Origin: Vibrio echinoideorum
GTDB lineage: Bacteria > Pseudomonadota > Gammaproteobacteria > Enterobacterales > Vibrionaceae
Reading direction: 5' to 3'
Assembly (NCBI RefSeq): GCF_024347455.1
Contig: NZ_AP025483.1
Coordinates: 1,612,001-1,676,000, forward strand
DNA length: 64,000 nucleotides
Shown here: one piece after another, positions 45,814-63,337 of the stretch
Layout of the letters: each line of letters starts with the position of its first letter
Numbering within the stretch: position 1 is the stretch's first letter
Notes under the pieces: model-generated
Databases searched by the model: none
The model's input: only the letters and a program-made list of their open reading frames with translations
Told to the model about the DNA's origin: nothing
Position numbers and translations under genes: made by a program

Positions 45814-46437
45814 TTAGCTTACCGCTTCAAACGTAAATGAATCATGTTTTACCATAGCGTGTTTAACGGGAATACCAAGGCTTTGACAAGTCATCAAGAC
45901 TTTCAGTTTTCGGTCAACAGGAGCGTGCTCTGAGAGGATCACTGCTCTTAAGCATTCTTTGTTCAGATACAATTTATTCCCGACAATTTCTTCATCAGGT
46001 AACACCCATCGATATTCTTGTTCGTGACGCCAGTTAGAATGCTTAGTTTTAAATAACTCCGACCCCAACTTAGTTTCTTTCAACTTAACTTCTAACCCTG
46101 TTAACGACGATAAATTAAATATGGCGGGGTTATCTTCATATTGGACTTCAAAGCAGTTGAGATTAGCCTTGCCGTTGTAAAAGTTAAGATCATACTCGAT
46201 ACACATACCTTTAAAATTATCGCCATATTGAGACCACAGTATGGGGTGACTACTCGATTGAGAAAAGCACATTAATTTAAAGTTGTTTTGAAGGTTCTCG
46301 TTGAACTCGTGATTCGATTCAAAAGGATTATTAAAGGTTTTTGCGTAATCAAACCATAACGAACATTCAGATATTGACTGTATGTTTCGATCGTGAAGGG
46401 ATCTGAACTTATAAAGCTTAGGCAACATATCAAACAC
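45814..46437 (-). CDS. DUF2971 family protein
   Basis: A 207-residue protein with the DUF2971 pattern: LYKFRSLHDRNIQSI at the start, FNNPFESNHEF, CFSQ, then LWSQYGDNFKGMCIEYDLNF, and HEQEYRWVLPDEE near the end. The family is scattered in bacteria and phage islands, often next to defence genes; no biochemical role is established here. It is monocistronic and lies in the accessory region left of the phage remnants. The strand is opposite to its HDOD-like neighbour. Confidence 0.8.
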   Translation of the reverse strand: MFDMLPKLYKFRSLHDRNIQSISECSLWFDYAKTFNNPFESNHEFNENLQNNFKLMCFSQSSSHPILWSQYGDNFKGMCIEYDLNFYNGKANLNCFEVQYEDNPAIFNLSSLTGLEVKLKETKLGSELFKTKHSNWRHEQEYRWVLPDEEIVGNKLYLNKECLRAVILSEHAPVDRKLKVLMTCQSLGIPVKHAMVKHDSFTFEAVS

Positions 46438-47362: not shown

Positions 47363-47587
47363 ATTAAGCCTTTTATATAATAAGTTATTGATTTCGAAAA
47401 TATGTTAACAAATAAAAGATATACCAACGAATGTAAAAACTGTCTAAGGATATGATTTTAAAGACTTATTAGTGATAGAAATACCAGTATCTCAGTTGTA
47501 AGACAAAGTGTTACGATCTAGGAGATAGTGTTGCGTTGTAACTTATTATTAACCAAGCTGTACATTGGAGGGCAAATTTTAGTGGAA

Positions 47588-47800
47588 ATGCAGTTTGAAA
47601 TAATGACTATGGAGCTCCCAACAAATTTACCAGGCAAAGATGGTAAACAAGCCAGAACGATAAGAGAACAAATAGGATATGTATATCTAGGTGGCAAGTT
47701 CCCAGTCGAAATGAAGCTATCATTACAAGACGACCGATCTGCATATAAATCAGGAAATTACGAACTTGATAGCTCAAGCTTTACCGTGAATAGAGGCTGA
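47588..47800 (+). pseudogene. Truncated filamentous-phage ssDNA-binding protein (gene V/RstB-like)
   Basis: The frame begins MQFEIMTMELPTN and shows LPGKDGKQARTIREQ..., close to the intact protein at 63056-63337 (MPGKDGKPPRTIYEQDAYAHLQGRFP). It matches for about 67 residues to SSSFTVN and then runs directly into transposase DNA at about 47793, where it ends after two foreign codons. GGAGGG lies upstream. It is the stump of an earlier inovirus, broken by the adjacent insertion sequence fragment. A GTG at 47582 is an alternative start. Confidence 0.8.
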
Positions 47801-48267: not shown

Positions 48268-49767
48268 TGTCAATCCCGTTTTAAAATGTCCTCATTTGTC
48301 CCAAATAGAAATGTCCCGTTGTTAGGTCTTTCGACTGGAGGTTTTGAATGGTTCGGTGAGCACTGGGTTGATGGCTCGAGGGGCTGTTTGAAGGGCTCTT
48401 TGTTGTGCACGGCGCTTGGGCGCTTTCTTACTGCGGGTTCGTTGCTGTTGTTGTTCGAATTCTTCTTGTTGTTGCTGAGCAAATTTTAAAACTTGGCCGA
48501 GGCGTTTGTTGTCGACGATTTGGGTTTGTTGAACGTGCTCGAGTTTGTCGAAGGTTTTGAATTCGAGTTTTCGATGCCCGTATTGGATGGCGATTTCACC
48601 GTTTGGGTAGTCGAGTACCTTGACATGTTCGTGCGCTAGTCGGCTGTTTTCTTCAGTAGGTTCAATGAGATAAATCACTTTATCGTATTGAAATGTCAGC
48701 GACTTTGAGAGCTTGCGGGTTTCTTGCCAACTGAAAATATCGTCGAGTTCTTGCTTGGACTCTCGAACCGGACGATGCATGTTTTTTGGGTATTGAGCGG
48801 GCTTAGCAAAGCGATGGTTAAAATCGGCGATGAAGTAGGGAAGCCAGGCGTTGGCTTGTTCGATGGTGTCGATACCTTGTAAGCGCATCTCTTTAACCAG
48901 TCGGTCTTGCAGCGTGAGGTTGGCTCGCTCAACGCGGCCTTTGGCTTGGGAGCTGTTGGCACAGATGAGTTCTATCGCCAGTTCTTTCAACACGCGCCCG
49001 TATTGAGTTTGGCCAACTTGTTTGTGTTTCTCCTGATTCACTCGAAAAATAGAGTGCTTGTCACTGTAAAATGCGATGGGCTTACCGTGCTCATTGAGGT
49101 ATTCACGCGTGGTCATCATGTAGTCAAACGCGGATTCTGTCTCGCTGAATCTTAGGTTCATCAGACGGCTAGTCGCATCATCAATGAACACCAATAGGCA
49201 GCATTTGTCACAGCGGCCTTCAAACCAGTCATGATGGGAGCCGTCAATTTGGATAAGTTCACCCAAGCAATCACGACGGTAACGAGGCTGATAGACCCGA
49301 GGTTTGCGTTGTGAATGTGGAAGCCACAGTCCGTCGGCGATCATCCATTGACGTAAAGTTTCGTTTGATATGGGCAAGTTGTGCAGCTCAGATAACTTTT
49401 CTTGAGCGAGTGTTGGTGAGAAGTCGCTGTAGTTTTCACGGACAAGGCTTAGCACCGAGTTTCGATAACCACTTGAATAACGATGATTGCTAGGCTTACC
49501 GCGAGCGCGATGAGCCAATCCGTTCGCACCGTATTTACGAAGTCGGTTCATCAGGCGTTGGATGTGACGGACACTCAAGCTGAGGATCTCGGCAGCATCG
49601 GCCCGACGTATCCGTCGCTGACACACATCTTCAATTACTTTAAAACGATTGATCTCTGAATCACTCATAGTCACCAGCATGTTGTTATGTCCATAGCGTT
49701 TACCAATATCAATTAAGCCTAGTGGTGATGAGCTAAAGGGACATTTTAACTTTGGAAAATAGTGACA
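48268..49767 (-). mobile_element. Complete insertion sequence, ISNCY/IS1202-like
   Basis: About 1.5 kb with terminal zones made of repeated (G)GGACATTT-like motifs in opposite orientation: CCCGTTTTAAAATGTCC...AAATGTCCC on the left and GGGACATTTTAA...AGTGACATT on the right. Tips were placed at TGTCA (48268) and TGACA (49763). No target duplication was seen. The boundaries are good to perhaps 20 bases. It holds one transposase gene and lies 25 bases from the dif-like site at 49792. Confidence 0.7.
48322..49680 (-). CDS. Transposase of an ISNCY (IS1202-like) element
   Basis: A 452-residue DDE transposase. An N-terminal helix-turn-helix region (RRADAAEILSLSVRHIQRLMNRLRKYG, residues about 22-48) precedes the rve-type catalytic core: first Asp in LIQIDGSHHDWFEG (about 168), second Asp in LLVFIDDATSRLM (about 188) and Glu in KGRVERANLTLQDRLVKE. 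The C-terminal tail is a Gln- and Arg-rich low-complexity stretch (residues about 405-435). The gene appears intact, so the element may still be active. ATG 49668 is an alternative start. Confidence 0.85.
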   Translation of the reverse strand: MLVTMSDSEINRFKVIEDVCQRRIRRADAAEILSLSVRHIQRLMNRLRKYGANGLAHRARGKPSNHRYSSGYRNSVLSLVRENYSDFSPTLAQEKLSELHNLPISNETLRQWMIADGLWLPHSQRKPRVYQPRYRRDCLGELIQIDGSHHDWFEGRCDKCCLLVFIDDATSRLMNLRFSETESAFDYMMTTREYLNEHGKPIAFYSDKHSIFRVNQEKHKQVGQTQYGRVLKELAIELICANSSQAKGRVERANLTLQDRLVKEMRLQGIDTIEQANAWLPYFIADFNHRFAKPAQYPKNMHRPVRESKQELDDIFSWQETRKLSKSLTFQYDKVIYLIEPTEENSRLAHEHVKVLDYPNGEIAIQYGHRKLEFKTFDKLEHVQQTQIVDNKRLGQVLKFAQQQQEEFEQQQQRTRSKKAPKRRAQQRALQTAPRAINPVLTEPFKTSSRKT

Positions 49768-49791
49768 TTACAACTTTGCGCTTACAATCTC

Positions 49792-49820
49792 GGTGCGTAT
49801 TATGTCTGATTATGTTTAAT
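49792..49820 (+). other. dif-like Xer site 3 (best match; chromosomal dif or att junction)
   Basis: GGTGCGTATTA, seven bases TGTCTGA, then TTATGTTTAAT. The XerC arm matches AGTGCGCATTA at 9 of 11 and the XerD arm matches TTATGTTAAAT at 10 of 11. It shares GTGCGTATTATG with the sites at 60681 and 63848. It is the left junction of the prophage array. Whether it is the native dif1 or a hybrid attL cannot be told without an uninfected relative. Confidence 0.75.
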
Positions 49821-49872
49821 GGTGCATATATTATAAATTCAGTGCAACCTCTTGTATTTAGAGGTTTTATAA

Positions 49873-50241
49873 TTGAAGTATCGCGAAATGAGTAAGAATT
49901 ACATTTTTCGAGAGTTAGAGTGCCAAATGACGAAGGAAGAGGTAGCTGAACTGTGTTTCAAAACTGTGAGAACTGTCACGGGTTGGGACGAGGGAAAACC
50001 AATACCACCCGAGTGTAAAAGGCTGATGCGAATGGCAAAAGGTCGAGAATTAAGCATTAGTGAAGATTGGGAACAATTCAAAATGTTATATGACACTATG
50101 GAGCTACCGACGGGCCAAGTGGTTAGGCCACAACAAATACTAGCAGGTATTGCGCTTTTAGGGATTCAATCGGAGTTAGAGATTAAGACTTCAACACACC
50201 TACTAAGACTTGCTAGAAGCATTGCAAAGATAAGGCCATAG
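49873..50241 (+). CDS. DUF3653 phage regulatory protein
   Basis: A 122-residue protein of the DUF3653 family, found in Vibrio filamentous phages and islands. A helix-turn-helix-like segment CQMTKEEVAELCFKTVRTVTGWDEGKPIPPECKRLMRM (residues 16-53) suggests DNA binding. The second half is helical (GQVVRPQQILAGIALLGIQSELEI). The start is TTG 49873, preceded by TAGAGG at good spacing; ATG 49888 is the alternative. It lies next to a dif-like site. A decayed copy lies at 51560-51717. A repressor role is likely but unproven. Confidence 0.8.
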   Translation: MKYREMSKNYIFRELECQMTKEEVAELCFKTVRTVTGWDEGKPIPPECKRLMRMAKGRELSISEDWEQFKMLYDTMELPTGQVVRPQQILAGIALLGIQSELEIKTSTHLLRLARSIAKIRP

Positions 50242-50339
50242 AATACGTATATTATTGACCAATTGGTAAATGATCTAAGTCGCAGTTTATGCCATATGAA
50301 AGTGATAGATTATCTCCTTATAAAGAGATGAGGACTATT

Positions 50340-50642
50340 ATGAAAAAATTACTATTACTCGTTGGTTTAACTATTTCTACAGTTTCAATGCCGACATTGA
50401 GTCATCCCGGTCGTACAGCTTCTGACGGTTGCCATTATTGTAGAACAAACTGTTCAGCTTGGGGAGTTCCTGAGGGGTCGAGACATTGTCACGTTCATGC
50501 TGAACCTACTAATAAAGATCTGGAAAGTTCCGAGGTAGTGAAAAGGCATAGCGACGAGGATGGACAGTTTGTAACTATAAAGCATGATGATGTATGGACA
50601 ACATTCATATCAACATCAGCAAAAACTGACGATAAGTCGTAA
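50340..50642 (+). CDS. Small secreted Cys/His-rich protein
   Basis: A 100-residue protein with a signal peptide MKKLLLLVGLTISTVSMPTLS. The mature part begins HPGRTASDGCHYCRTNCSAWG and continues PEGSRHCHVH; this GCHxCRTNC...RHCH motif occurs at the ends of several secreted nucleases and small periplasmic proteins and probably binds a metal. The longer frame from 50289 lacks a signal peptide; ATG 50340 is chosen because the leader starts there, with GAGGA just before. It follows the DUF3653 gene and ends before a terminator. Role unknown. Confidence 0.75.
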   Translation: MKKLLLLVGLTISTVSMPTLSHPGRTASDGCHYCRTNCSAWGVPEGSRHCHVHAEPTNKDLESSEVVKRHSDEDGQFVTIKHDDVWTTFISTSAKTDDKS

Positions 50643-50670
50643 AGAACTTCCACGTACTGTTGGCCTAAAT

Positions 50671-50697
50671 AAGCCGGACTCATTGAGTTCGGCTTTT
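50671..50697. terminator. Terminator A, shared with terminator B
   Basis: AAGCCGGACT, CATTG, AGTTCGGCTT plus a T run. The same 28 bases recur at 51893-51920, also just before an opposite-strand cargo gene, which points to a duplicated phage end. Confidence 0.85.
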
Positions 50698-50708
50698 TTA
50701 TGACTTAC

Positions 50709-51419
50709 TTAGACTACATCGAGAGCTTCAGGCCAAATAAAGTAAGGACCAAATCTTTTGCTGTATTTGAACTCAGCACCTTGTTCTTTACCTGATTCAG
50801 TTAAAGTATGTTTCCCATCTTCTAACGAGAGGTACCCCTTAGTCACACAGGCTTGAAGAAAATCGTCAGTTTTTAGTTTATGTTTCTTTGCGAGTTTAGA
50901 AGACGTAACTTTAGCTTCTTGATCAGCTGCATTTGATTCATCACTAGTTGTAGGCTCAGCTACATCAGACGAAACCTTTTCTAATGAAATTCTTACTTCA
51001 TCACTAATACGAATAATACGTTGAGCTTCTTCATAAGAGTCTTTGTAAATCTCTGAGTCGTCATCTCTGTCGATAAAGATACCCATTTCATTATTATTCA
51101 CTTGGCTGAACTCATACAGGTTTAAGCTAGTGATGATGCAAGAACTTTCATTCATATAGCACTTAGCATGAAGGTTCTTACAGAAACTAGTACGAACGAA
51201 AGATAGCCCTTTAAGCCAATTAATCTCATCTGGCTGTAGCTCACTTTTTCCATAAACGATTCTGATGTCGATTTTCAATCGATCTTTGTCTTCTAGTAGC
51301 TCTCTGATTCGGTCATTAAGTTTCAAAAAAGGGCTAATAAGTATCAACCTTTCAGATGCATTCTTAATCAACTCTTCTAGATAGTAGTTTGTAGCACTTG
51401 TGTTTAAAAACTTAGCCAT
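50709..51419 (-). CDS. Phospholipase D-like protein with C-terminal winged-helix-like region
   Basis: A 236-residue cytoplasmic protein of the PLD superfamily. The half-site NLHAKCYMNES (H84, K86) and ITSLNLYEFSQVNNNEMGI (S98, N100) form a single HKD-type centre, although the usual Asp is replaced; such single-centre proteins dimerise and act as nucleases or lipases. After an acidic linker (residues about 140-165) comes KLAKKHKLKTDDFLQACVTKGYLSLEDGKHTL, resembling the helical domain of phage antirepressors. ATG 51419 is preferred over the longer frame because AAGGAT precedes it. It occupies the cargo slot of the phage remnant. A nuclease-type defence role is a guess. Confidence 0.75.
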   Translation of the reverse strand: MAKFLNTSATNYYLEELIKNASERLILISPFLKLNDRIRELLEDKDRLKIDIRIVYGKSELQPDEINWLKGLSFVRTSFCKNLHAKCYMNESSCIITSLNLYEFSQVNNNEMGIFIDRDDDSEIYKDSYEEAQRIIRISDEVRISLEKVSSDVAEPTTSDESNAADQEAKVTSSKLAKKHKLKTDDFLQACVTKGYLSLEDGKHTLTESGKEQGAEFKYSKRFGPYFIWPEALDVV

Positions 51420-51506
51420 TTCATATCCTTGACATATAAAATTTAACGCATACAAATTACGACGAGAACAACGCTAATGCAAGTTGGTAATTTGATACAT
51501 CAAACA

Positions 51507-51534
51507 TGACGCACATTATCTGATTATGTGATAG
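51507..51534 (+). other. Degenerate dif-like site 4
   Basis: TGACGCACATTAT then CTGATTATGTGATAGG parallels the site at 49792 (TGCGTATTATGTCTGATTATGTTTAATGG) with two bases lost in the centre and several changes. It is followed at about the same distance by a DUF3653 copy. It looks like an old att junction that has decayed. Confidence 0.55.
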
Positions 51535-51559
51535 GTGAATGGCAAGTGATTGTTTATTA

Positions 51560-51717
51560 AGGTTTTGACAATGTATACGACAGTATGGGGCTGCCCACTG
51601 GCCAAGTGGTGAGGCCACAACAAATATTAGCAGTGGGGATTCAATCAGAGTTAGAGATAAAGACATCAACCCATCTACTTGGGTTAGCTAGGGCGATAGC
51701 TAATATCAAGAAATAGG
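51560..51717 (+). pseudogene. Decayed copy of the DUF3653 gene
   Basis: The frame YDSMGLPTGQVVRPQQILA, then VGIQSELEIKTSTHLL...ARAIANIKK, followed by a stop, matches the C-terminal half of the intact gene at 49873-50241, with a 12-base in-frame deletion in the middle. The first half and start codon are gone. It follows the degenerate att site at 51507, as the intact gene follows the site at 49792. Confidence 0.8.
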
Positions 51718-51892
51718 ATTAGAAAAGTATGGTTCTATCAAGGCGAATTCAAAGTCTAGGCCATCTCTGCTAACTAAATGGATTTTTGCTGATATGGTTA
51801 ACTCGACTGGCGAAAGATAGACCCTGTTTAGTGGAATTAACCTTGTTTAGTGGATTAGCCAGTCCTCCTTTTTGGTCATATCAAGGAGAAAG

Positions 51893-51921
51893 AAGCCGGA
51901 CTCATTGAGTTCGGCTTTTTT
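51893..51921. terminator. Terminator B, copy of terminator A
   Basis: AAGCCGGACT, CATTG, AGTTCGGCTT and T run, identical to 50671-50697. It lies at the 3' end of the HEPN-like gene and after the DUF3653 remnant. Confidence 0.85.
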
Positions 51922-51940
51922 GCACATTAATACTTTCTAC

Positions 51941-52660
51941 TCATTTGATATCGATAAGTGTCGTAGCCAAATAGCTCAATAAAGAAATACACTTAAGCGA
52001 ATTAATTTCTGTTCCATAATCAAGGTACTTTCTAGAACCATGTAGAATACCGTTGCGATTTGGAGCTTTATCCTTATCTACTTGCTTACCTTTCCCAATT
52101 CTTGCACCAAATTCAGTATCTTGTAGTAAAGGCGACAAAATAATTGCTCTTTCGGGCTTCTTTTCTATCAGAACTTTAATTCGATCAATTCTCTTGTTTC
52201 GTTCAGCAAAAAGGTAACTACCTACCGTCTGCGCACACAAACCATCAGTTTGAGCTAAAAATAGTGGGATGCTCGCGATGTAATTACCGTCATTATGTAG
52301 GGAGAACGCGACATCCAGTATGTCTTTTCTTAACGGGTATAAGTCAACTAACTGCTTATGGATATCTTCAATTGACTCACTTATTTGTACGGTCATATAG
52401 CTATCTAAACTATCTTGACCTTCCAAAACAAAGTCTTGAAAGTCACAAGGAGTAAAGTCATTTGGAAACCATCCACTTTCTGCGGCACTTTGCCATATGC
52501 TGCTATTTATTTCTTCGAAGTTTTCAAGGTATTTAACAAAATCTTGAATTTCTTGTTGGTTTTCATTTATAAAATCAGTCATGCCTTTGGCTGCTAGACT
52601 TAATATTTCATCAACTTGAGCAACCCCTTTCGATAAACTAGTATTGTGAGTATTATCCAT
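51941..52660 (-). CDS. HEPN-like protein, candidate abortive-infection ribonuclease
   Basis: A 239-residue helical protein. Near the C-terminus the segment NRNGILHGSRKYLDYGTE contains R202-N-G-I-L-H207, the RX4H form of the HEPN ribonuclease signature (RX4-6H), followed by NSLKCISLLSYLATTL, a helix common in HEPN proteins. The N-terminal 110 residues are acidic and of no known family. HEPN proteins include many phage-defence and toxin RNases. GGAG precedes the ATG. It occupies the cargo position of prophage 1, beside a terminator. Toxicity is not shown, and no antitoxin gene is evident next to it. Confidence 0.7.
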   Translation of the reverse strand: MDNTHNTSLSKGVAQVDEILSLAAKGMTDFINENQQEIQDFVKYLENFEEINSSIWQSAAESGWFPNDFTPCDFQDFVLEGQDSLDSYMTVQISESIEDIHKQLVDLYPLRKDILDVAFSLHNDGNYIASIPLFLAQTDGLCAQTVGSYLFAERNKRIDRIKVLIEKKPERAIILSPLLQDTEFGARIGKGKQVDKDKAPNRNGILHGSRKYLDYGTEINSLKCISLLSYLATTLIDIK

Positions 52661-53202
52661 TTGAACTCCTAAGCTCAGCAGTTATTAGATAGGAAGTTTA
52701 TTTACTTCTTGCCTAGTTTTTAGTCAATGCAATTCTACTAAAAACACCCATTTATTAACAATGACTTATCGAAAAAATCAGATACTTGAAAACAAAAATT
52801 ATCGTTCAAAGCAATGAACTAGCGCGCAAGCTTGCAACTAGAGCAGGGTTGTGTGTGTGCTGATAGTTAGGTCGAATTTACCCCCGTGATACAACACGGG
52901 GGTTGGCTTCCTCCCGCCGCGCTCGTCCTCCTCAGTCTTCGTCGTTCTCACTTGTTGTCCGTCAGCACTGGAAAGAGATCCTTTTCGACACTCAAATGAT
53001 CTTAAAGAAAGCTAGTGAACACAAAAAAGCCTTACCGATGTGGCAAGGCCTTAAAGAGCTATTCTGGCAGGATGAGGGAGGGTGCTACATAGATGAGCAT
53101 GGGCAGTTAGAAACACTCACCAGTTGAGACCTACGGACTAATAACCTCTACAGTGTGGCTCGGTGCCTCGTTCGCGCTTCGCTCTCTCTTATCCCTGCGG
53201 GG
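52661..53202 (-). other. Intergenic replication/packaging region of prophage 1
   Basis: The region between the HEPN-like gene and the RHH gene. It contains the hairpin ACCCCCGTG / CACGGGGGT (52880-52903). A stretch whose minus strand reads like GAACGACGAAGACTGAGGAGGACG (about 52917-52945) parallels CGGCGAAGACTGAGCAAGGACGG at 61106-61128 in prophage 2. The 16-mer GCCCCGCAGGGATAAG, here on the minus strand near 53184-53205, also recurs at 60912-60927. The shared blocks suggest the plus-strand origin and packaging signal. A weak plus-strand frame (52996-53127, 43 codons) lies here but overlaps the operon terminator. Confidence 0.5.
53018..53053 (-). terminator. Terminator of the prophage 1 late operon
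   Basis: On the minus strand AAGGCCTTGCC, CACATC, GGTAAGGC is followed by TTTTTTG. One mismatch in the stem. It lies about 150 bases after the RHH gene, the last gene of the phage operon. Confidence 0.7.
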
Positions 53203-53448
53203 CTACTCAACGACAGACTGTAATCCTTTCAAAGCATCAAGGTAGTCATTTACTGCAAGCTCATTATCGTAGAGCTTCCGCTTTAGCTTCTCATTTAGCA
53301 TTCGTTCTTTTTGATACAACTCTTGATACTTAAGTGCGTCATAGCCACCTTGAACTAGAGCTTTAGACATGGTTGATGTCTTCGTCAATTCTTTTAGCTT
53401 GGATAGCATTTCTTCATGCTTTTCAGTATCTCGAATAGTAATAGCCAT
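53203..53448 (-). CDS. Small ribbon-helix-helix-like DNA-binding protein
   Basis: An 81-residue protein whose first 40 residues (MAITIRDTEKHEEMLSKLKELTKTSTMSKALVQGGYDAL) fit a ribbon-helix-helix fold: a beta strand and two helices. A coiled-coil region (YQKERMLNEKLKRKLYDNEL) follows. Such proteins dimerise and bind DNA operators. It is separated from zot by 142 bases that contain perfect inverted repeats, which are likely its operator or a processing site. Its first six residues MAITIR are the same as those of Zot. ATG 53451 is the alternative start. Confidence 0.75.
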   Translation of the reverse strand: MAITIRDTEKHEEMLSKLKELTKTSTMSKALVQGGYDALKYQELYQKERMLNEKLKRKLYDNELAVNDYLDALKGLQSVVE

Positions 53449-53467
53449 CATTTTTCCTCAATGCCGG

Positions 53468-53577
53468 TTTATCCTGGTTTGATTATGATAGCATTTTTGA
53501 CAATTCGTTCCAGGATAAAAACCTTGGTTTGATAGCATTCCACGGTTCTCGATCAAAACACCGGTTCGTGTTTTGAT
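53468..53577. promoter_or_regulatory. Inverted repeats between zot and the RHH gene
   Basis: Two perfect 10-base inverted repeats: TTTATCCTGG / CCAGGATAAA (53468-53477 and 53510-53519) and ATCAAAACAC / GTGTTTTGAT (53552-53561 and 53568-53577). The phrase TTGATAGCATT or a close variant recurs three times in the same gap. They may be the operator of the RHH protein or a terminator plus promoter that lets the last gene be controlled on its own. Confidence 0.55.
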
Positions 53578-53593
53578 AGCATTACCCAACGAG

Positions 53594-54961
53594 TTAAAAC
53601 AAACTGACATCAGCTCGACTCACTTCTGGCAAAGTGGCCGAGGCAGCTGCGTAAGGCTTACATGTTATCAACTTCGACAGCTGGCCTCTGTTCAACTTCA
53701 ACAAGCAATCATCAATCCGGTCAAACGTAATGTCATAAGCTTTTAGAAAGTGTTCGTTTACCGAGTAGAAACCATCGAGCGCTTCCACCTCGATGCTAAC
53801 GTGACGTTCGATAGAGCCATTTTTAATAGCGAAATTCACACCCGTTACAAACGCTTTCTTAATTCCCTCAAAAGGAAGTACCTCAGCTATAGGAACATGA
53901 GAAAGGCTATCTTTGTCAGAGCCTTTACTGCTATCCCCACTAGAAGATACATCCCCAGAAGCTTCATTATTTTTGCTAGGTAGTGTTTCACTTTGCTTAG
54001 GAACGGCAGTTGAAGACGTTGTTTGTCCCGCTTCCTCCACCGTCTCAGTAGTTTCAAAATAACGATTGGATAAGTCATAGATTATGTACCCGAAACAGAA
54101 TATGGATAATAGAAAAATCAAAATAGCTTTAGGACTACGAAAAAGCGTATTCATAGCGAGTTGTTGTTTAGCGCTGCCTGTCCCCGTAGATTTGTAGAGT
54201 AGGAAAGAGTCTAAAGGGATTTTTTGATTGGTTAGGTTGACGTCTTTCTTTTTGGGTATGACTGGAGTCGATACCGATTTGTCATGCTTCAAGATATAGG
54301 GATTTCGTTTCGTCCAGAAAAACTGATCGCGTCCCTTGTGAAAGAAGTTCTGATTCGCACAGGCCTTAATGCCAGAATCGATTTGCTTCCAATCTGGTGA
54401 AAGCAACTCGATATCCCAGTCATATTTTCGGTGTCTCATGAACCCCTCATTGAAGCTATGAGGATAGATGATTCTGCCTTCTGAATCGTACTCAGCAATC
54501 CCTCTATCATCTATTTCTGAGTCTTCTAGTTCGTCCATGTTCGCAGGGGTGTAACGAGAATTGAAAAAGCGTTCGTAATCTTTAGGTAGTAAACCGTCAC
54601 GAGGTGATTGAGTGATGAAGTCAGATAGCGGCTTGTATTTCACTTTACGAATATCAAAGCCGACGTTTTTAGAGAATATATCCTGACATTCATCAATAAC
54701 GATAAGCGCACCAATAGGGCACCAACAGAAAAAATGAGTCCAAAGGTGAACGCCAGATTCATCCCTAGAGCTAATACGAAAGAGTTTAGCGGTACTAGGG
54801 AATTGGATATTGAATCGCTCTTCAATGACGGCTAAGGGCTGCATACCCTCGATGTTAGTTACAACTGTTCTACCTGCCTTTAAAGCTTGGTAGATAGAAA
54901 AGTAAGCCGTGTATGCCGACTTGTAAGAGCCATTAGCGCCCGTTCTTATGGTAATAGCCAT
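53594..54961 (-). CDS. zot: Zot-like assembly ATPase (pI)
   Basis: Zot/pI is the inner-membrane ATPase that threads filamentous phage out of the cell. The 455 residues start MAITIRTGANGSYKSAYTAY with the Walker A GANGSYKS (residues 8-15), a Walker B ALIVIDECQDIF (about 95-105), and one membrane helix (AILIFLLSIFCFGYIIYDL, about 282-300). The periplasmic tail has a Ser-rich stretch (GDVSSSGDSSKGS) before a C-terminal domain. The start overlaps the stop of the upstream pVI-like gene by one base. Confidence 0.9.
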   Translation of the reverse strand: MAITIRTGANGSYKSAYTAYFSIYQALKAGRTVVTNIEGMQPLAVIEERFNIQFPSTAKLFRISSRDESGVHLWTHFFCWCPIGALIVIDECQDIFSKNVGFDIRKVKYKPLSDFITQSPRDGLLPKDYERFFNSRYTPANMDELEDSEIDDRGIAEYDSEGRIIYPHSFNEGFMRHRKYDWDIELLSPDWKQIDSGIKACANQNFFHKGRDQFFWTKRNPYILKHDKSVSTPVIPKKKDVNLTNQKIPLDSFLLYKSTGTGSAKQQLAMNTLFRSPKAILIFLLSIFCFGYIIYDLSNRYFETTETVEEAGQTTSSTAVPKQSETLPSKNNEASGDVSSSGDSSKGSDKDSLSHVPIAEVLPFEGIKKAFVTGVNFAIKNGSIERHVSIEVEALDGFYSVNEHFLKAYDITFDRIDDCLLKLNRGQLSKLITCKPYAAASATLPEVSRADVSLF

Positions 54962-55302
54962 TATCTAGATAACCTCATCACTAAAGCGGTAGTGAAGAAG
55001 TTAGCCCAGACAGCAAGGCCTTGAGGGACGCCAAACTTAAACGCATAAAATCGCAACTCGTCAGGCAAAGCATTAAAAGCTTTGGACAAAATGTCGTTAA
55101 AGCCGATCTCTTTTAAGAGGATTTGAGCCGAGTTATAAGAGAGCTTAATAAACTCCAATTCAGCTTTTAATTTCATCTTAATCATGAAAATCTGGATGTA
55201 TGAAAAGAGGTCTAGCGTCATTTGGGGAATAGCTTTAAAGAAGTCAGTGATGAATGACATCTGTAAGCTAATCCAATCAATAAAAGAGTAGATGTAATCC
55301 AT
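54961..55302 (-). CDS. pVI-like minor coat/assembly protein
   Basis: A 113-residue hydrophobic protein between the adhesin and zot, the position of gene VI in Ff phages. It has hydrophobic helices at both ends (IYSFIDWISLQMSFITDFFKAIP and GVPQGLAVWANFFTTALVMRL). Sequence is divergent from Ff gene VI. It overlaps zot by one base and follows the adhesin gene by two. Confidence 0.75.
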   Translation of the reverse strand: MDYIYSFIDWISLQMSFITDFFKAIPQMTLDLFSYIQIFMIKMKLKAELEFIKLSYNSAQILLKEIGFNDILSKAFNALPDELRFYAFKFGVPQGLAVWANFFTTALVMRLSR

Positions 55303-55304
55303 AA

Positions 55305-57050
55305 CTAATCCTTACCTAACATTCTGATTCCAGACAAAACAAACAAGAACATCACAACGGCTGAAATGAGCGTGGCGTTATCGAGTAGGGCAGAGAGCAC
55401 GCCCGATTTGAAAGAGCGTTCAGCATGGTTAACATTGAGATTTAAGGAGTGCTCTTTATAAGTACCGTTGTTGAAAGAGCTGGTATCGATAGAGAATAAC
55501 GCTTTGAACTTTTCAAATTCATCGCTCATTTCTTGTTTGATTTCTAAGACTTCATTTTGAACCTCAGCAATTTGATTTTGATTAACAATGAAGCCCTCAC
55601 CATCAAACCCAGAACTAGGTTCAACAAAATTATTGTTATTAGTAATACCATCAATCAGGTCGGTTAGTTTGCTTTCTACACCCGACATATCAGAACCATC
55701 TAGGCCGTCTATTTTATCTGATAAAGCATCAATGCTTGATTCAACACTAGACAAATCAACCGTTGAAGTACCGCCAGAAATAGCCGCTATTTGTTCACTT
55801 AGTTGATTAAATTTTGGATCTAAAGCAGCCAAAGAATCAGTCACATCTGAATAAAGAACTCCGAACCCCTCCGAAACAAATTGAAGCCCACCATCAAGGT
55901 TATTCATCTGAGAAGTCAAAGATTGCTGATTACTATTAATATCAGAAGATAAAGTTTTTAATAACTTTTGGTTAGCATTAGCTTTTGCTGCATTTTTTAA
56001 TTGATTCTTTTGAGTAGAGGTTAAACCAGAACCAGAACCATCTAAAAGCAAGTTTGTTAAAGTCTGAATTTGACGCTGAGTATCTAAAATATTAGTGTCA
56101 ACTTCATCAAATTGAGTGGCAAAATTAGTTACATTATCACGAACATCATCAATATCATTTCTAGCCCAGTTTACAGAGCGTTGAACATCATCAATCTTAT
56201 TATTTGATACTGATGCATTGTCATGAATCCTATCTCTCAAAAAAGCTTCTGTGGCAAATATCTGTGAGTTAATACTTGATGCTGTATTACCAGATGCTTG
56301 AGCTAAAGAATCTAGTTTCTGTTTAAAATAATCATTGGTAACGCTGATATTCGAAGTTAAAGCACCGATGGATTGATTAAAGTCAGTACGACGAACAGAA
56401 CGAAGAGAAAGATCGCTAATGCCTCTCGCTAGAGTTCCAATATTTCTACTTTGTTCAGCAGCTACCGAACGATAAGACCAGCAATCAGGATCATCAGTCG
56501 AACAATTACCAACGGCAGGAATATCGTTTAGACGGTCATAGAAATCATCTATAGAGTCAGGAACGCCATTATCATTGTTATCAACTAATTCATTATTATT
56601 CTTGTAAGGGTCAGGGTCTTCATGATTGTCAATACCATCACCATCCCAATCTTCATACTTGTCATCAACTCCATTTTGGTTGACATCATTCTCATAGGGA
56701 AAGGGCTCAGGAGTATCACCAGAAAAACGGTTAATCTCATCAAAAGCACAAGTGCTACCCGTATAAGTGAATTTATTCGTCCACTTATTACCCTCAACAG
56801 ATATAGAAACCGAACCCGCCGTCATTCTACAAGCGGCACCAGTCGAACGATCACCAATACAATAAGAGCGAGGATTATCACCCCAGATATAAGCGTCCCA
56901 GGTTAAGTTTTTTCCCGTTCCCTCAAGTATCTTACAAGAACTAACACAAACGCCATCAACCTCAACTTTACCCGCGCCGCACTGCAAAGCGTTGGAATTG
57001 AAAGCAACAAGGACGAGAAGAAGAGAGAGGTATTTTTGATATCGTTTCAC
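55305..57050 (-). CDS. pIII-like adsorption protein with calcium-binding-type repeats
   Basis: Minor coat protein at the phage tip that binds the host receptor. The 581 residues have a signal peptide (MKRYQKYLSLLLVLVAFNSNALQ), a Cys-containing N-terminal domain, and an Asp-rich segment (NDVNQNGVDDKYEDWDGDGID, near residues 119-140, then DNNDNGVPDSIDD) like thrombospondin type 3 calcium-binding repeats. A long coiled-coil region (about residues 190-450) follows, then a C-terminal membrane anchor (LISAVVMFLFVLSGIRMLGKD). Receptor unknown. The N-terminal domain likely sets host range. Confidence 0.85.
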   Translation of the reverse strand: MKRYQKYLSLLLVLVAFNSNALQCGAGKVEVDGVCVSSCKILEGTGKNLTWDAYIWGDNPRSYCIGDRSTGAACRMTAGSVSISVEGNKWTNKFTYTGSTCAFDEINRFSGDTPEPFPYENDVNQNGVDDKYEDWDGDGIDNHEDPDPYKNNNELVDNNDNGVPDSIDDFYDRLNDIPAVGNCSTDDPDCWSYRSVAAEQSRNIGTLARGISDLSLRSVRRTDFNQSIGALTSNISVTNDYFKQKLDSLAQASGNTASSINSQIFATEAFLRDRIHDNASVSNNKIDDVQRSVNWARNDIDDVRDNVTNFATQFDEVDTNILDTQRQIQTLTNLLLDGSGSGLTSTQKNQLKNAAKANANQKLLKTLSSDINSNQQSLTSQMNNLDGGLQFVSEGFGVLYSDVTDSLAALDPKFNQLSEQIAAISGGTSTVDLSSVESSIDALSDKIDGLDGSDMSGVESKLTDLIDGITNNNNFVEPSSGFDGEGFIVNQNQIAEVQNEVLEIKQEMSDEFEKFKALFSIDTSSFNNGTYKEHSLNLNVNHAERSFKSGVLSALLDNATLISAVVMFLFVLSGIRMLGKD

Positions 57051-57067
57051 TGTAAAACCCCAGATAA

Positions 57068-57091
57068 GAAAACGCCCCCAAACTAGGAGGC
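57068..57091 (-). terminator. Terminator between coat genes and adhesin gene
   Basis: On the minus strand GCCTCC, TAGTTT, GGGGGC is followed by GTTTTCTT. The short stem with one wobble is a weak terminator, like the one after gene VIII in Ff phages, which would keep coat-protein mRNA in excess. The stop codon of the 32-residue gene lies within it. Confidence 0.6.
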
Positions 57092-57181
57092 ATTGATACC
57101 CGTATATACGCCATATACGAATGACATAGCCATAACCACCCCAAACAGGACGGTTACGACTTGAGAGACAATGTCTCCCAT
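57083..57181 (-). CDS. Minor coat protein, pVII/pIX type, 32 residues
   Basis: A tiny gene translating as MGDIVSQVVTVLFGVVMAMS followed by FVYGVYTGINAS. It is almost one membrane helix, the size and character of pVII/pIX. Its ATG overlaps the stop of the major coat gene by one base (TAATG), so it is translationally coupled. It was below the usual length cut for automatic gene finding. Confidence 0.75.
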   Translation of the reverse strand: MGDIVSQVVTVLFGVVMAMSFVYGVYTGINAS

Positions 57182-57381
57182 TAGTTCCCCATAGAGTTCA
57201 TGATAGCGCGAAGACCAAAGCCAATCGCAGCAAGACCGATAAGACCAACCACAACCAAACCATAGTTAGATTGACCAGTCGTTACAGCTTCGTTGATAGC
57301 CGTTGTGATTGCAGTATTATCAGCAAATGAAGAAGCAGATACAAATGCAGTAGAACCTAGAACCAATAGACGTTTTTTCAT
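57181..57381 (-). CDS. Major coat protein (pVIII-like)
   Basis: A 66-residue precursor with signal peptide MKKRLLVLGSTAFVSASSFA (cut near residue 20) and a mature part of about 46 residues: an acidic, polar start DNTAITTAINEAVTTGQ, a membrane helix YGLVVVGLIGLAAIGFGL and a basic end LRAIMNSMGN. This is the standard architecture of inovirus major coat proteins. A good AAGGAAA lies before the start. Confidence 0.88.
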   Translation of the reverse strand: MKKRLLVLGSTAFVSASSFADNTAITTAINEAVTTGQSNYGLVVVGLIGLAAIGFGLRAIMNSMGN

Positions 57382-57422
57382 GATATTTCCTTTTTTAAGA
57401 GTGTGTTACTAAAAGTTGACCC

Positions 57423-57647
57423 TTAGCCTTTGCCAAGAGTTTTTAAGATTCGTCCTAGCACATGGCCAGAAACGAAAGATAATAAAATCCAACCTGAAAC
57501 AGCGGTGTAAAGTTCACTGTCGATGTTCAAAGATTGAGACGCAGAGACTAAATTGTTGTATTCAGAATCTGTGAGCATTACGAGCTGACAATCAAAGTCG
57601 GTTGACGTTCTTAAGTAACCTTGCTGAGTGGTCGTAATGCAGTTCAT
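57423..57647 (-). CDS. Small phage membrane protein
   Basis: A 74-residue protein with a polar N-terminal half containing two Cys and a C-terminal hydrophobic helix (AVSGWILLSFVSGHVLGRIL). Probably a minor coat or assembly protein. It starts two bases after the stop of the 77-residue gene. No closer match recognised. Confidence 0.65.
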   Translation of the reverse strand: MNCITTTQQGYLRTSTDFDCQLVMLTDSEYNNLVSASQSLNIDSELYTAVSGWILLSFVSGHVLGRILKTLGKG

Positions 57648-57649
57648 TG

Positions 57650-57883
57650 TTAAGCCTTACTTGAAGCACTTTTTTGACGATTGAGAGAGCCAATTTCAGA
57701 CAAAAGAAAGTCTCTTTTAAGCTCTAAATCTCGAATCGTTCTCGTTAGAAGCAAGCGGTCAATCCAATCAATTACAAACGAGCAAACACGACCAAATAGT
57801 GAGAACACGACCATGGTAATAATTAGGGCTTCAATCAGTACATCCAAATCATCGCCAGTTAATTGATAAACGACCGTTTCCAT
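57650..57883 (-). CDS. Small phage membrane protein with basic tail
   Basis: A 77-residue protein with a hydrophobic helix (LIEALIITMVVFSLFGRVC, residues 16-34) and a charged C-terminal helix (LLLTRTIRDLELKRDFLLSEI). Probably an inner-membrane assembly factor. It starts two bases after the DUF1293 gene. No known family recognised. Confidence 0.65.
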   Translation of the reverse strand: METVVYQLTGDDLDVLIEALIITMVVFSLFGRVCSFVIDWIDRLLLTRTIRDLELKRDFLLSEIGSLNRQKSASSKA

Positions 57884-57885
57884 AA

Positions 57886-58233
57886 TTAAGCCTTGTTAGC
57901 TTTCAAAAAGTTATCGAAGTGCTTTTTAATTTCTTCATCGACTGGAACAAGATTGGTCACCAAGATATCAAGTGGATCATTTGGGTTAGCACCAAAGCTC
58001 AGTTCGTAGTCACGGTTAGCAACAAAAGCGCGAGATTGGATAAGCTGACGAGCGTAGGCCACATCAATTTTCAACGCTTGTTTGTTGTAAGGGATGTCAG
58101 TCGAGTAACCGATACCCGTTTGCTGAAACTTCTCGTTATCGACTTCTTCAACAGCACGTAGGACAGACAATTCCGCAAATTCCATATTAGATTTAGGGAA
58201 ACGCTTGATAGCAATACCAGTTATTGTAGGCAT
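57886..58233 (-). CDS. DUF1293 family phage protein, probable ssDNA-binding protein
   Basis: A 115-residue protein of the DUF1293 family, carried by Vibrio filamentous phages at the place of gene V. The sequence MPTITGIAIKRFPKSNMEFAELSVLRAVEE, then DIPYNKQALKIDVAYARQLIQS, fits a small beta-rich protein. By position, directly after the initiator gene (overlap of 13 bases), it should coat the single-stranded genome. That role is inferred. Confidence 0.8.
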   Translation of the reverse strand: MPTITGIAIKRFPKSNMEFAELSVLRAVEEVDNEKFQQTGIGYSTDIPYNKQALKIDVAYARQLIQSRAFVANRDYELSFGANPNDPLDILVTNLVPVDEEIKKHFDNFLKANKA

Positions 58234-59333
58234 ATTCTTGACTCCAAAATTTCGATTTTCTGTTTAGTGTATTCGTCAGGAATACCCAACGAGGTTTCAA
58301 AGTTTGCGCGTCTATGATGCGTAGGAATGAGCATTCCGAATGCTTCACCCAAGTCACCCTCAGTCATTGCAACAACTTCAGATAGAGCTTTGCCACATTG
58401 GCGACGAACCCAAGCAATACGAGCGAAGAACTCAAGACCCGCTTTTTTCTTGTTAAGCTCAATCTTCATTGGTTCAGCAGGGTCGATACTGGCCGAGAAG
58501 TCACACAGACCAGCAAAGGCCGAAGCGGGCGAGGCGAGTAGTGCCAAATCGCACTTCTTCAATTCCACTTCATTGCGGTACCAAATTACTTCAGGGTCAG
58601 CGATGTTTTGCTCGAACTTCTTGTTGTACACACGCCAGTAGATTGCAGAGGTACGAGAGCCAACAAGAACGGCTTCCTCTGATAATTCACCGGATTGTGA
58701 AACGCGCTTATGAGGAACCATTGTCGGACCACGACCACGAGAAGCAGTGCGAAATGCTCCCTCATAAAAACATTTCTCAGCATACTTACAGTCAAAGATT
58801 CCGGTGTAGTCATCCACGCAGAGATCCAAACGGGCTAGGCGAGTGATACCCAAAAGTGACAACCACCAATGCACCTTTTTGTGAGTGGTGAAGTCGAACA
58901 ACTTAGCGCAACCCGTACCATTGATTTGCACGTAGACCGTGTCATTGTTACCACCAACACCGACCAAGCCACATTCAACCGTTCCTGTAGAGTCGTAAAT
59001 CACCATCGAATCTTCATAGCCATGTAAGCCACGGCCACGCATCGGAGAGATACGGAAGTTAAAGACTTTAGACATGAACTCATCAAATCTATCGGCCAAA
59101 ACCTTGCGACATTTGTTACGGTGTGACTCAATTGATTTCTCTATCGCTTCTGGTGAGTTAAGGCGACCGTTGACGCTTCTCTTTTTAAACTCAGGAAACT
59201 GCATGTTGATAAAGTCTTGTTCGTTCGAGCTGTCCAAGTGTCTAAGCGAACCGTACGAAAACGAAAAGGCTAGGTGATCCACTTGAACCGGACGAATCTC
59301 ATCATGGAACTTATGAGGCTTTTTAGATGGCAT
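58221..59333 (-). CDS. Phage replication initiation protein, Rep_trans type
   Basis: A 370-residue rolling-circle initiator that nicks the double-stranded replicative form at the plus origin. The pattern VDHLAFSFSYG, then LARLDLCVDDYTGIFDCKY, GRGPTM, and VGSRTSAIYWRVYNKKFEQ is the Rep_trans (PF02486) family signature; the Tyr of the RVYNK region and the DxD-like VDDY belong to the active site. It is of a different class from the gene II/X initiator of prophage 2. It overlaps DUF1293 by 13 bases and the upstream 66-residue gene by 11. Confidence 0.88.
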   Translation of the reverse strand: MPSKKPHKFHDEIRPVQVDHLAFSFSYGSLRHLDSSNEQDFINMQFPEFKKRSVNGRLNSPEAIEKSIESHRNKCRKVLADRFDEFMSKVFNFRISPMRGRGLHGYEDSMVIYDSTGTVECGLVGVGGNNDTVYVQINGTGCAKLFDFTTHKKVHWWLSLLGITRLARLDLCVDDYTGIFDCKYAEKCFYEGAFRTASRGRGPTMVPHKRVSQSGELSEEAVLVGSRTSAIYWRVYNKKFEQNIADPEVIWYRNEVELKKCDLALLASPASAFAGLCDFSASIDPAEPMKIELNKKKAGLEFFARIAWVRRQCGKALSEVVAMTEGDLGEAFGMLIPTHHRRANFETSLGIPDEYTKQKIEILESRICLQ

Positions 59334-59523
59334 GGAAAACCCCTTTGACTAACAGCTCTTGATAGTTGTCGTCAGTTATCGCAACAATCTGAAATGACAC
59401 CATGCCGTAGTGAGCTTCCATGAACTGGAAAAAATCACGCGGAGTCTTGAAGAAGTTATGGCCCCAAGGAAAATAGGCGTTGATGCCGTGATTGGGTTCG
59501 TTGTCGAAGTAGATTGAATCCAT
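59323..59523 (-). CDS. Small phage protein of unknown function
   Basis: A 66-residue acidic, aromatic-rich protein (YFDNEPNHGINAYFPWGHNF...). No family recognised. It overlaps the initiator start by 11 bases and sits two bases after its upstream neighbour, so it is part of the early operon. Confidence 0.65.
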   Translation of the reverse strand: MDSIYFDNEPNHGINAYFPWGHNFFKTPRDFFQFMEAHYGMVSFQIVAITDDNYQELLVKGVFHAI

Positions 59524-59525
59524 GA

Positions 59526-59837
59526 TTAAAGCATCCCCAACAATTTAGCTTTAGATGAAGTCAATTCGTCATAAGCACGTTGAAGTTCTGAAGCTTCACA
59601 AATATCAATTTGACCATCATGTGACATCAAAGTAGCTGTCAGAACTTTGATTTCATCAAACTCAAGAGAAGCGGAAACAATCTCGGAATAAGCTTCATTT
59701 GAAACCTCGAAACTACAAAATTTAGACTTGGCAAAATCAACAGAGACATCAAAGAGGAAAGTAAAATAAAGAAAAGCAGCTACGAAAATAGAAAGCTCAA
59801 CTTTACATTTAGACAAAAATGAAAGGACTGATTTCAT
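59526..59837 (-). CDS. Small membrane-anchored phage protein
   Basis: A 103-residue protein with an N-terminal membrane helix (LSIFVAAFLYFTFLFDVSV, residues 15-33) and an acidic helical soluble tail with two Cys (SKFCSFEVSN, DICEASE). Unknown family. It is the second gene of the early operon. Confidence 0.65.
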   Translation of the reverse strand: MKSVLSFLSKCKVELSIFVAAFLYFTFLFDVSVDFAKSKFCSFEVSNEAYSEIVSASLEFDEIKVLTATLMSHDGQIDICEASELQRAYDELTSSKAKLLGML

Positions 59838-59839
59838 GA

Positions 59840-60136
59840 TTAACGCTCCAAACCATAGAACGAGCAGAACTGTTCAAGCTCTTGGTCGTTATCAAACGTA
59901 AGCGTGAAAGAGTCTTCAGAGTTATAAAGCGGATTCTTATAGCTGACAGTGTGGAAAAGTTCTTCACCGATAGTGCGTTGGCCAAACTCAAGTTCGCTAA
60001 CAAGGAACTCAAAGCAGATTTCTAGTGGTGAGTTATGAAGAGACACGGACGCGTGTGTGAAATCTGGATAGTTAGAGAAGCTGACGTGTTCAGATTTGAG
60101 CACAGAGCCGTATTGAATCGATTCAACTGTAAACAT
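59840..60136 (-). CDS. First gene of the prophage 1 early operon, unknown
   Basis: A 98-residue soluble acidic protein starting MFTVESIQYGSVLKSEHVSF and ending QFCSFYGLER. No family recognised. AAGGTGG lies seven bases before the ATG at 60136; a GTG nine bases upstream is possible. It is divergent from the DUF3693 regulator with a palindromic operator between, so its promoter should be under that control. Confidence 0.7.
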   Translation of the reverse strand: MFTVESIQYGSVLKSEHVSFSNYPDFTHASVSLHNSPLEICFEFLVSELEFGQRTIGEELFHTVSYKNPLYNSEDSFTLTFDNDQELEQFCSFYGLER

Positions 60137-60242
60137 AACAACCACCTTGACTGATTATTGAGAATTGGGATTGACCGTCTAAGTTGAGCTATAAGCGTCA
60201 AGGGCAAACAGCCCAAACCTAGACAGCCAAATCAGGTTAGTC

Positions 60243-60337: not shown

Positions 60338-60700
60338 ATGTACCAAGATAAAATCTTAAATGCCTATAAACAGGCTCAAAACTACGTACAAGATAAGCAA
60401 ATAGCGCATGACTTAGGGATTACACCTCAGAAGATTTGCAAAATTAGAAGCGGAGAACGCTATCTAACTGAAACTGAAGCACTTTTTATTGCTGAAAGGA
60501 TTGGTTTGTCAGAAGAAGAAGTCTTAGTGTACTTAGCCGCTGACCGCAGCAAAAATCATAAGGCTCAGGTAGCTTGGCAGAACATCGCAAAAAAGTTTAA
60601 CGGGCTTAATATGTCAGGTGTATCAATGGCTTGTGGTAGTTTGGCGTTACTGGCGACCACCCCAGTTGACCCCACGATTCAGTGCGTATTATGGGTCTAA
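60338..60700 (+). CDS. DUF3693 phage regulator with helix-turn-helix
   Basis: A 120-residue protein of the DUF3693 family of Vibrio filamentous phages. A Cro/CI-type helix-turn-helix lies at QIAHDLGITPQKICKIRSGERYLTETEALFIAERIGL (residues 22-58). After a linker the C-terminus is hydrophobic (SGVSMACGSLALLATTPV) and ends QCVLWV. GGAGGTG is seven bases before the ATG. It is divergent from the early operon. The last seven codons lie within the att site at 60681, so integration changes the end of the protein. Likely repressor or control protein. Confidence 0.8.
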   Translation: MYQDKILNAYKQAQNYVQDKQIAHDLGITPQKICKIRSGERYLTETEALFIAERIGLSEEEVLVYLAADRSKNHKAQVAWQNIAKKFNGLNMSGVSMACGSLALLATTPVDPTIQCVLWV

Positions 60701-60712
60701 ATTATGTTGAGT
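60681..60712 (+). other. dif-like Xer site 5, junction of prophage 1 and prophage 2
   Basis: AGTGCGTATTA, ten bases TGGGTCTAAA, then TTATGTTGAGT. The XerC arm matches the Vibrio dif1 arm at 10 of 11 and the XerD arm at 9 of 11; the central part is longer than the usual six bases, as in some phage att sites. It divides the two prophages, and the DUF3693 stop codon lies inside it. Confidence 0.75.
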
Positions 60713-63046: not shown

Positions 63047-63055
63047 GAAAACACC

Positions 63056-63337
63056 ATGTTAAAAATCGAAGTATTCAAAGAAGACGTAAGAGTTACACCC
63101 AGAACCATGCCAGGGAAAGACGGCAAGCCACCACGTACTATTTACGAACAAGACGCTTATGCGCATTTACAAGGTCGTTTTCCAACGCTCACAAAGGTTC
63201 AACTGGAAGAAGGTCAACCACCTTATGAAGCCGGATTTTATACCTTTCATAGCTCTTCTTATATCGTTAATAACTTTGGCACTGTGGAGCTAAAGAAGTA
63301 CGGAAAAATCATCACACCTCTGGAGTTGGATTTATGA
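63056..63337 (+). CDS. Phage single-stranded DNA-binding protein (gene V/RstB-like)
   Basis: A 93-residue protein with the fold and position of gene V proteins: MLKIEVFKEDVRV, then MPGKDGKPPRTIYEQDAYAHLQGRFP, a beta-rich core, and SSSYIVNNFGTVELKK. It coats newly made plus strands. A truncated relative lies at 47588. Its stop overlaps the next start (ATGA). Confidence 0.85.
   Translation: MLKIEVFKEDVRVTPRTMPGKDGKPPRTIYEQDAYAHLQGRFPTLTKVQLEEGQPPYEAGFYTFHSSSYIVNNFGTVELKKYGKIITPLELDL

Follow-up and report, generated by a model that had tools for sequence, protein, structure and literature searches.

The stretch of Vibrio echinoideorum DNA analysed here (contig NZ_AP025483.1, positions 1,612,001 to 1,676,000; 64 kb, referred to as the window) contains a single filamentous-phage (inovirus) prophage that is integrated at dif. 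It occupies ~49.79-60.71 kb of the window, has a length of ~10.9 kb and extends from a dif-like site to a weaker attachment (att)-like site (Table 1). The prophage starts with an xafT-like gene on the plus strand, followed by an accessory slot, minus-strand genes for a Zot/pI-like ATPase, a protein in the pIII position, coat-type proteins and a replication protein, and finally a repressor-like gene on the plus strand. The slot spans the interval between the end of the xafT-like gene and a conserved hairpin block and holds a YHYH-like gene, a PLD-family (DrmC-like) gene, the relic of a second xafT-like gene with a terminator, and a HEPN RNase-like gene. As detailed below, related elements keep both edges and the phage backbone, and the cargo enclosed by the edges is exchanged in almost every case.

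The ATPase is 93-94% identical to that in seven V. cyclitrophicus phage records, and the coat, minor coat and single-stranded DNA (ssDNA)-binding genes of the backbone were assigned from their position and the annotation of relatives. Attachment sites were scored with arm sequences that we take to be those of Vibrio dif.

Table 1. Features of the prophage, its slot and the adjoining insertion sequence (window coordinates).
Feature	Position	Strand	Remarks
Insertion sequence adjoining the dif-like site	48296-49759	-	transposase 48322-49680, 452 aa; imperfect inverted ends
dif-like attachment site	49792-49820	+	29 bp: XerC arm, 7-bp centre, XerD arm; 1 mismatch per arm
xafT-like gene (HTH protein; 'regulator', f237 ORF9 family)	49873-50241	+	intact, 122 aa; left border of the slot
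YHYH-like cargo, small protein	50337-50642	+	weak domain match, 27.9 bits (cut-off 30)
Terminator hairpin, first copy	50667-50699		
PLD-family nuclease-like, DrmC-like cargo	50709-51419	-	PF13091, 33 bits (cut-off 27); phrog_9329, 454 bits
PLD-gene upstream DNA	51420-51529	-	common to PQ189366; holds the mistaken 'second dif'
Relic of a second xafT-like gene (3' end)	51570-51720	+	83% to the closest intact copy
Terminator hairpin, second copy	51889-51921		
HEPN RNase-like cargo	51941-52660	-	invariant R202-x4-H207
Conserved right border block	52818-52915	+	near-invariant core 52860-52905; perfect 9-bp hairpin
Second, smaller variable spot	53206-53591	-	most of an 82-aa gene (53203-53451), phrog_15613
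Phage assembly ATPase (Zot/pI-like)	53594-54961	-	first core gene past the slot
Remaining inovirus backbone	54961-60145	-	replication protein and pIII-position protein matched
Repressor-like gene	60338-60700	+	phrog_638; opposite prophage end
Right-hand att-like site	60681-60712	+	XerC arm with 1 mismatch, XerD-like arm more distant; weak in scan (6 mismatches)

One composite slot

An earlier note, made from the letters of the window alone, had interpreted positions 49792..52660 as two parallel segments, each with a dif-like site, a DUF3653 gene, an identical terminator and an opposite-strand cargo gene. This interval covers the slot half of a prophage that extends beyond it, and the parallel arrangement is ruled out by the alignments of the relic, the terminators and the V. 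cyclitrophicus inovirus PQ189366, which leave one prophage with a composite slot and the relic of a second regulator gene. From the first segment, the dif-like site and the intact gene next to it stand, but the latter is not a DUF3653 gene, because PF12375 matches neither its product nor anything in the whole genome in a Pfam search. The supposed second DUF3653 gene is a relic whose alignments to intact xafT-like copies start at position 51570 and cover only their last ~53 codons, with a looser alignment extending further back. The second dif-like site, placed at ~51509, has six mismatches, a level reached by 12 sites in the window and by a mean of 14.4 in five base-shuffled windows, and lies in a region (50709-51529) that matches PQ189366 at 85% and corresponds to the PLD gene and its upstream DNA. 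This site is thus ruled out, and the window copy, having no second site near 51509, is not a unit bounded by two Xer sites. The terminator does occur in two copies, which are near-identical (32 of 33 bases). As judged from these alignments, the two 'segments' make up a single slot that bears a scar.

The proposed nature of the two minus-strand cargo genes held up. The PLD protein scores above the cut-off for PF13091, has a single HKD half-motif (by eye) and is 93% identical to a protein of PQ189366 annotated there as 'DISARM__drmC', and residues R202 and H207 of the HEPN-like protein are invariant in 65 aligned sequences.

Cargo turnover between two edges

The slot was surveyed in 116 elements, obtained from 93 regions, the window and two phage records (112 elements after de-duplication; 71 other genomes). 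The regions were hand-picked, among the matches listed, around near-full-length, stop-free matches to the flank gene; fragmentary matches, those with stops and part of the duplicates were excluded. Genes were called with a simple script that takes the longest open reading frame, which makes small genes uncertain, and the core-gene end of a slot was defined by three tested clusters, among them one (c5) that is secretin-like by sequence reading, hence the term phage core gene. A dif-like site lies at most 260 bp upstream of the xafT-like gene in 84 of the 110 elements with enough sequence (median gap 52 bp), compared with 10 of 1848 control windows. Among 95 resolved elements, 75 reach a phage core gene and 20 reach another dif site or xafT-like gene first; 16 others have no end in reach and one has no gene call. 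The resolved elements contain 179 slot genes of at least 100 aa, which form 143 families, 127 of them present in one element only, and 143 of these genes lie on the strand opposite to xafT. The earlier proposal that inoviruses have an exchangeable cargo slot at their dif end is thus borne out: listing the neighbours across Vibrio genomes, as had been suggested, returned 143 families with an enrichment of defence families, and not the same neighbour in all copies.

Five of the 111 other elements (L072, L075, L071, PQ189292 and PQ189351; L numbers denote our loci and G numbers our genomes) show at least 80% nucleotide identity to the window both on the xafT side and on the zot side. In all five, homology stops at 50204-50236 and resumes at 52818-52858, and the cargo is different in each; in three, part of the relic or terminator also matches. 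The 386 bp of the smaller variable spot are cleanly absent in four of the five.

The hairpin block that forms the right edge is present in 56 of the 112 elements, always on the same strand. It is located between xafT and the core genes in all 46 elements that can be judged, the other ten having no core gene in reach; cargo of at least 100 aa lies on its xafT side in 41 of the 46, and genes of this size are found on its other side in 20. Among 50,697 phage records, the block was detected in 50, of which 48 are named Vibrio phage and two Fibrovirus, including VGJ, fs1, VSK and KSF1. Since its presence tracks phage lineage, a role in replication origin function or packaging is only a guess. The block was also considered as a structured ssDNA element, but this idea was abandoned because the 391-nt region folds no better than its shuffles (z 0.41); a search of positions 49700-54000 against Rfam found nothing at E<=0.1. 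The annotated 'distinctive region' of VGJphi is situated on the zot side, between the pI gene and the block, which indicates that accessory genes enter on both sides of it. On the left, 26 of 111 elements have a terminator-like hairpin in the 350 nt that follow xafT, as against three control windows (about one window per element), and none of these hairpins is of the window's type under the strict rule used, so that the terminator is ruled out as a universal border.

Taken together, these results make it likely that the locus represents one dif-integrated Vibrio inovirus prophage with an accessory slot between the xafT-like gene at the att site and the conserved hairpin block edging the assembly operon, whose edges would serve as swap anchors and whose cargo would have a defence or exclusion function. 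In such a scenario, the edges may provide the homology by which co-resident inoviruses swap the intervening DNA through ordinary recombination, and inserts would be tolerated because the filamentous particle has no fixed genome length. The window copy could have formed when a YHYH-PLD piece was placed in front of an older xafT end and the HEPN gene, with the 3' xafT relic and the second terminator as the scar of this stacking. The PLD nuclease and HEPN RNase may then serve the lysogen in defence or in exclusion between phages, a candidate function for both.

The same scar would be left by two tandem dif prophages if one deletion had removed the first backbone together with the second att site and the 5' end of its xafT gene, in which case the locus would be decayed and silent on the slot. 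We give this history a substantial chance, although one short of even. The relic starts at 51570, at most ~40 bp from the end of the PLD upstream DNA at 51529, as expected for a deletion junction, and for CTXphi, VGJphi and TLCphi the accessible part of PMC4246890 describes multiple or tandem elements at dif. However, a deletion accounts for this particular copy but fails to explain why cargo turns over among the other resolved elements and the five relatives with the same backbone.

The xafT-like flank gene

The protein encoded at the left edge belongs to phrog_1668 and goes by the public names 'regulator', 'phage protein' and 'Bacteriophage f237 ORF9'; its family is found in 75 of the 50,697 phage records and in 91 of 227 Vibrio genomes. 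Its sole NCBIfam match at E<=0.1 is NF040522 (VC1465/XafT Xer recombination activation factor), with a score of 41 bits that is below the cut-off of 70 bits. Matches to NF040522 are present in 99 of 226 Vibrio genomes, in none of them over the cut-off. A structural model of the protein (pLDDT 81, pTM 0.48) comprises N-terminal helices, a short hairpin and two further helices, with the N-terminal helices being read as a helix-turn-helix. We label the gene XafT-like and do not assign it as XafT, and its Xer-activating role is only putative, as suggested by sequence similarity. It resembles the XafT gene of TLCphi (Midonet et al., 2019, as cited in the accessible part of PMC9765430) in its position beside a dif-like att site and in having NF040522 as its only NCBIfam match, but differs from it in the sub-threshold score and in the att sites, which are 29 bp long with a 7-bp centre and not of the 28-bp TLC form (XerD first). 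A 7-bp centre was observed in 82 of the 84 dif-like sites found beside xafT-like genes, and 29 bp is the att size given for VGJphi, which uses XerC, in the accessible part of PMC4246890. These features count against a TLC-type role of the flank gene.

Units without phage core genes

In the 20 resolved elements that run from xafT to the next dif site or xafT-like gene, none of the tested core-cluster genes intervenes. It is thus conceivable, albeit on balance doubtful, that the att-xafT-cargo unit is a small mobile module that integrates via XerC/XerD, stacks in arrays and constitutes a chromosomal counterpart of the Acinetobacter dif modules; for the window, this would mean that the YHYH-PLD piece is one module that landed beside a HEPN-bearing prophage. 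In three of the 20 stacked elements, no gene separates the two xafT copies, and seven show a recognisable dif site before the next xafT, although two of these seven represent the same module on two contigs and one of the sites has four mismatches. Together with L148, a solitary 2.3-kb unit (att, xafT and three genes) that ends at a 28-bp host-type dif, these seven make up the units among the relatives that are bounded by two Xer sites and devoid of phage core genes. The L148 unit is followed by two gene families that in L128 come after a prophage, which contains zot pieces as well as pVI-like and repressor-like genes and is probably degraded. A further case in favour of modules comes from genome G084, where a dif-xafT-cargo module of ~2.5 kb occurs in different surroundings on two large contigs, with 97% identity between the copies over a match of 2,886 columns. 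The cargo here belongs to the solute-binding type, and GGDEF is found in a module next to it, showing that not all modules concern defence.

Several observations weigh against such modules. The second dif site is absent in the window, homologous recombination through the xafT ends could account for the movement of the 97% identical copy, and no excision was observed. Moreover, in four inovirus loci from three genomes (L114/L127 and L120/L122), the outer xafT copies match each other and the inner copies match each other at 80-91%, whereas outer and inner copies are only ~50% identical, indicating old paralogue pairs that were inherited and not freshly stacked. In these four loci, the two diverged genes keep their order across genomes and the content between them changes. 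When the modules were examined as possible deletion derivatives, 22-bp matches of their interior att sites to repressor-gene tails were found in one of 20, and a plasmid search with one module returned only two partial matches, to GGDEF-type genes. The more far-reaching proposal, that the unit is a self-contained mobile cassette of ~0.8-2.6 kb with its own Xer-activating factor and without phage core genes, which is collected and swapped by Vibrio dif sites and inoviruses, forms the counterpart of the Acinetobacter dif modules and spreads defence genes among filamentous phages, strikes us as rather unlikely. If the modules did move by themselves, Xer recombination would provide Vibrio chromosomes with a gene-cassette system in addition to the integron.

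Integrons were also considered as a general source of slot cargo. Arrays of attC-like repeats contain HEPN relatives in two genomes, G077 and G222, and a PLD relative in G077. However, only 4 of 141 slot proteins have a match in 241 kb of integron arrays, two of them being the window's own cargo genes, through which one of these arrays was identified, compared with 1 of 139 chromosomal and 0 of 112 phage core proteins, so that these data do not show a general link. One array of chromosomal integron type contains a HEPN relative (25% identity) and a PLD relative (72% identity) ~700 bp apart (L161:5648-7820, G077 C2). In two other loci, attC-like sites lie ~1.6-6 kb downstream of xafT-like genes (L104:3256-6368, G196; L136:6466-8181, G027).

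Defence content of the slots

The defence content was assessed with one protein per slot family (n=141; two families adjoining the ATPase were left out) and 139 submitted chromosomal controls of 141 drawn. Slot proteins matched 463 PADLOC models, including AbiLi, AriA, HEC-01A, PtuA and Old, and the controls matched 89; these models are redundant, and the figures are not protein counts. In random samples, 8 of 20 slot proteins (out of 138 from outside the window) had a PADLOC match at E<=1e-5, namely PDC-S31, PDC-S39, HEC-01B, RexA, PDC-S33, a weak HTH_VI, a retron reverse transcriptase (RT) and IetA, as against 0 of 10 controls. Slot genes are thus enriched in defence families, with the proviso that the control samples are small. 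PADLOC matches among the ten cargo proteins of the same-backbone relatives were limited to a PDC-M66A/B pair. Individual slots contain a RexA homologue (L116:6652-7593) and a type I-A retron RT beside a 553-aa slot protein (L142:4721-7319). An improbable alternative is that the cargo helps the phage otherwise, for instance by toxin-antitoxin-like stabilisation, in replication or through host behaviour, and that the defence matches reflect common nuclease and ATPase folds: GGDEF, SBP_bac_3 and DUF2975 cargo and the 12 of 20 random slot proteins without a PADLOC match at E<=1e-5 are in line with it, but specific systems (RexA, type I-A retron RT, HEC-01B, IetA, AbiLi, AriA, PtuA and Old) are commoner in slots than in controls.

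Surroundings of the prophage

The insertion sequence (IS) next to the dif-like site has a 25-nt inverted repeat (48296-48320/49735-49759; 76% identity) and a transposase with an HTH_28 match above the cut-off and a weak rve match. Clusters matching this transposase occur in 14 and 3 of the 116 elements, and in three maps (L067, L086 and L094) the transposase cluster directly precedes dif. A DUF2971 protein (PADLOC PDC-S31) is encoded at 45814-46437, outside the prophage and near dif; this candidate defence family is also found inside the slot of L084. At 61904-63337, the prophage is followed by a second filamentous-phage-type replication gene (II/X family) together with a protein at 63056-63337 that resembles, by eye, a helix-destabilising-protein fragment at 47528-47800 (PF02303).

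Comparison with known systems

The window IS may be a Vibrio dif-targeting IS. With its 452-aa transposase and 25-nt inverted ends it resembles dif-targeting elements of the IS1202 type, for which insertion 5 bp from the XerC arm and inverted ends of 24-26 bp are described in the accessible part of PMC10132070, but its end is ~32 bp from the XerC arm. The Acinetobacter dif modules of plasmids and chromosomes, as covered by the same source, likewise consist of genes packed between Xer sites, as seen in L148, L077, L096, L155 and L156; the units described here differ in that each has its own xafT-like gene, and the window copy lacks a second site.

With regard to the cargo, the window PLD protein has the PLDc_2 domain in common with DISARM DrmC/PLD nucleases, but reaches only 28 bits with the NCBIfam DrmC model (cut-off 133), and no other DISARM gene was found among the neighbours tested, which are the xafT-like, YHYH-like and HEPN-like genes. 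The HEPN-like protein shares the R-x4-H motif with HEPN RNases such as AbiV, with a weak fold match. In contrast to DISARM DrmC and AbiV-type HEPN RNases, neither protein has a known partner gene.

The earlier note knew of no named system of this form in inoviruses, yet the general hotspot has already been published: Steensen et al. (2024, ISME J; PMC11630473, accessible in part) describe a hotspot of accessory genes in filamentous prophages located at dif in Vibrio, flanked by a regulator and enriched in defence genes, and the VGJphi record marks a 'distinctive region'. As in that region and at the ORF8 position of VfO3K6/f237, the extra genes of the window lie between the pI/Zot gene and an opposite-strand regulator; in VGJphi, however, the conserved block has the extra gene on its zot side and not between itself and the regulator. 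Like the published hotspot, the slots surveyed here are found near the prophage border at dif, are enriched in defence genes and consist of variable genes between two core genes of related prophages (five of five relatives with the same backbone). By contrast, the XafT-like flank, the hairpin border, the relic scars and the core-gene-free modules are not described in the accessible part of that account, and a literature search, mainly of titles and the starts of abstracts and with few subscription journals, found no published mention of the XafT-like identity of the flank, the hairpin border or att-xafT-cargo modules without phage genes. Given that filamentous prophages are small, a sharply bounded slot offers a compact place to seek unknown defence genes, and its two edges, the xafT-like stop codon and, where present, the hairpin block, permit the automatic extraction of cargo. 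The slot is real and belongs to a known kind of system, although the earlier note misdescribed its details; its two sharply defined edges and the modules that lack phage core genes are the most useful additions.

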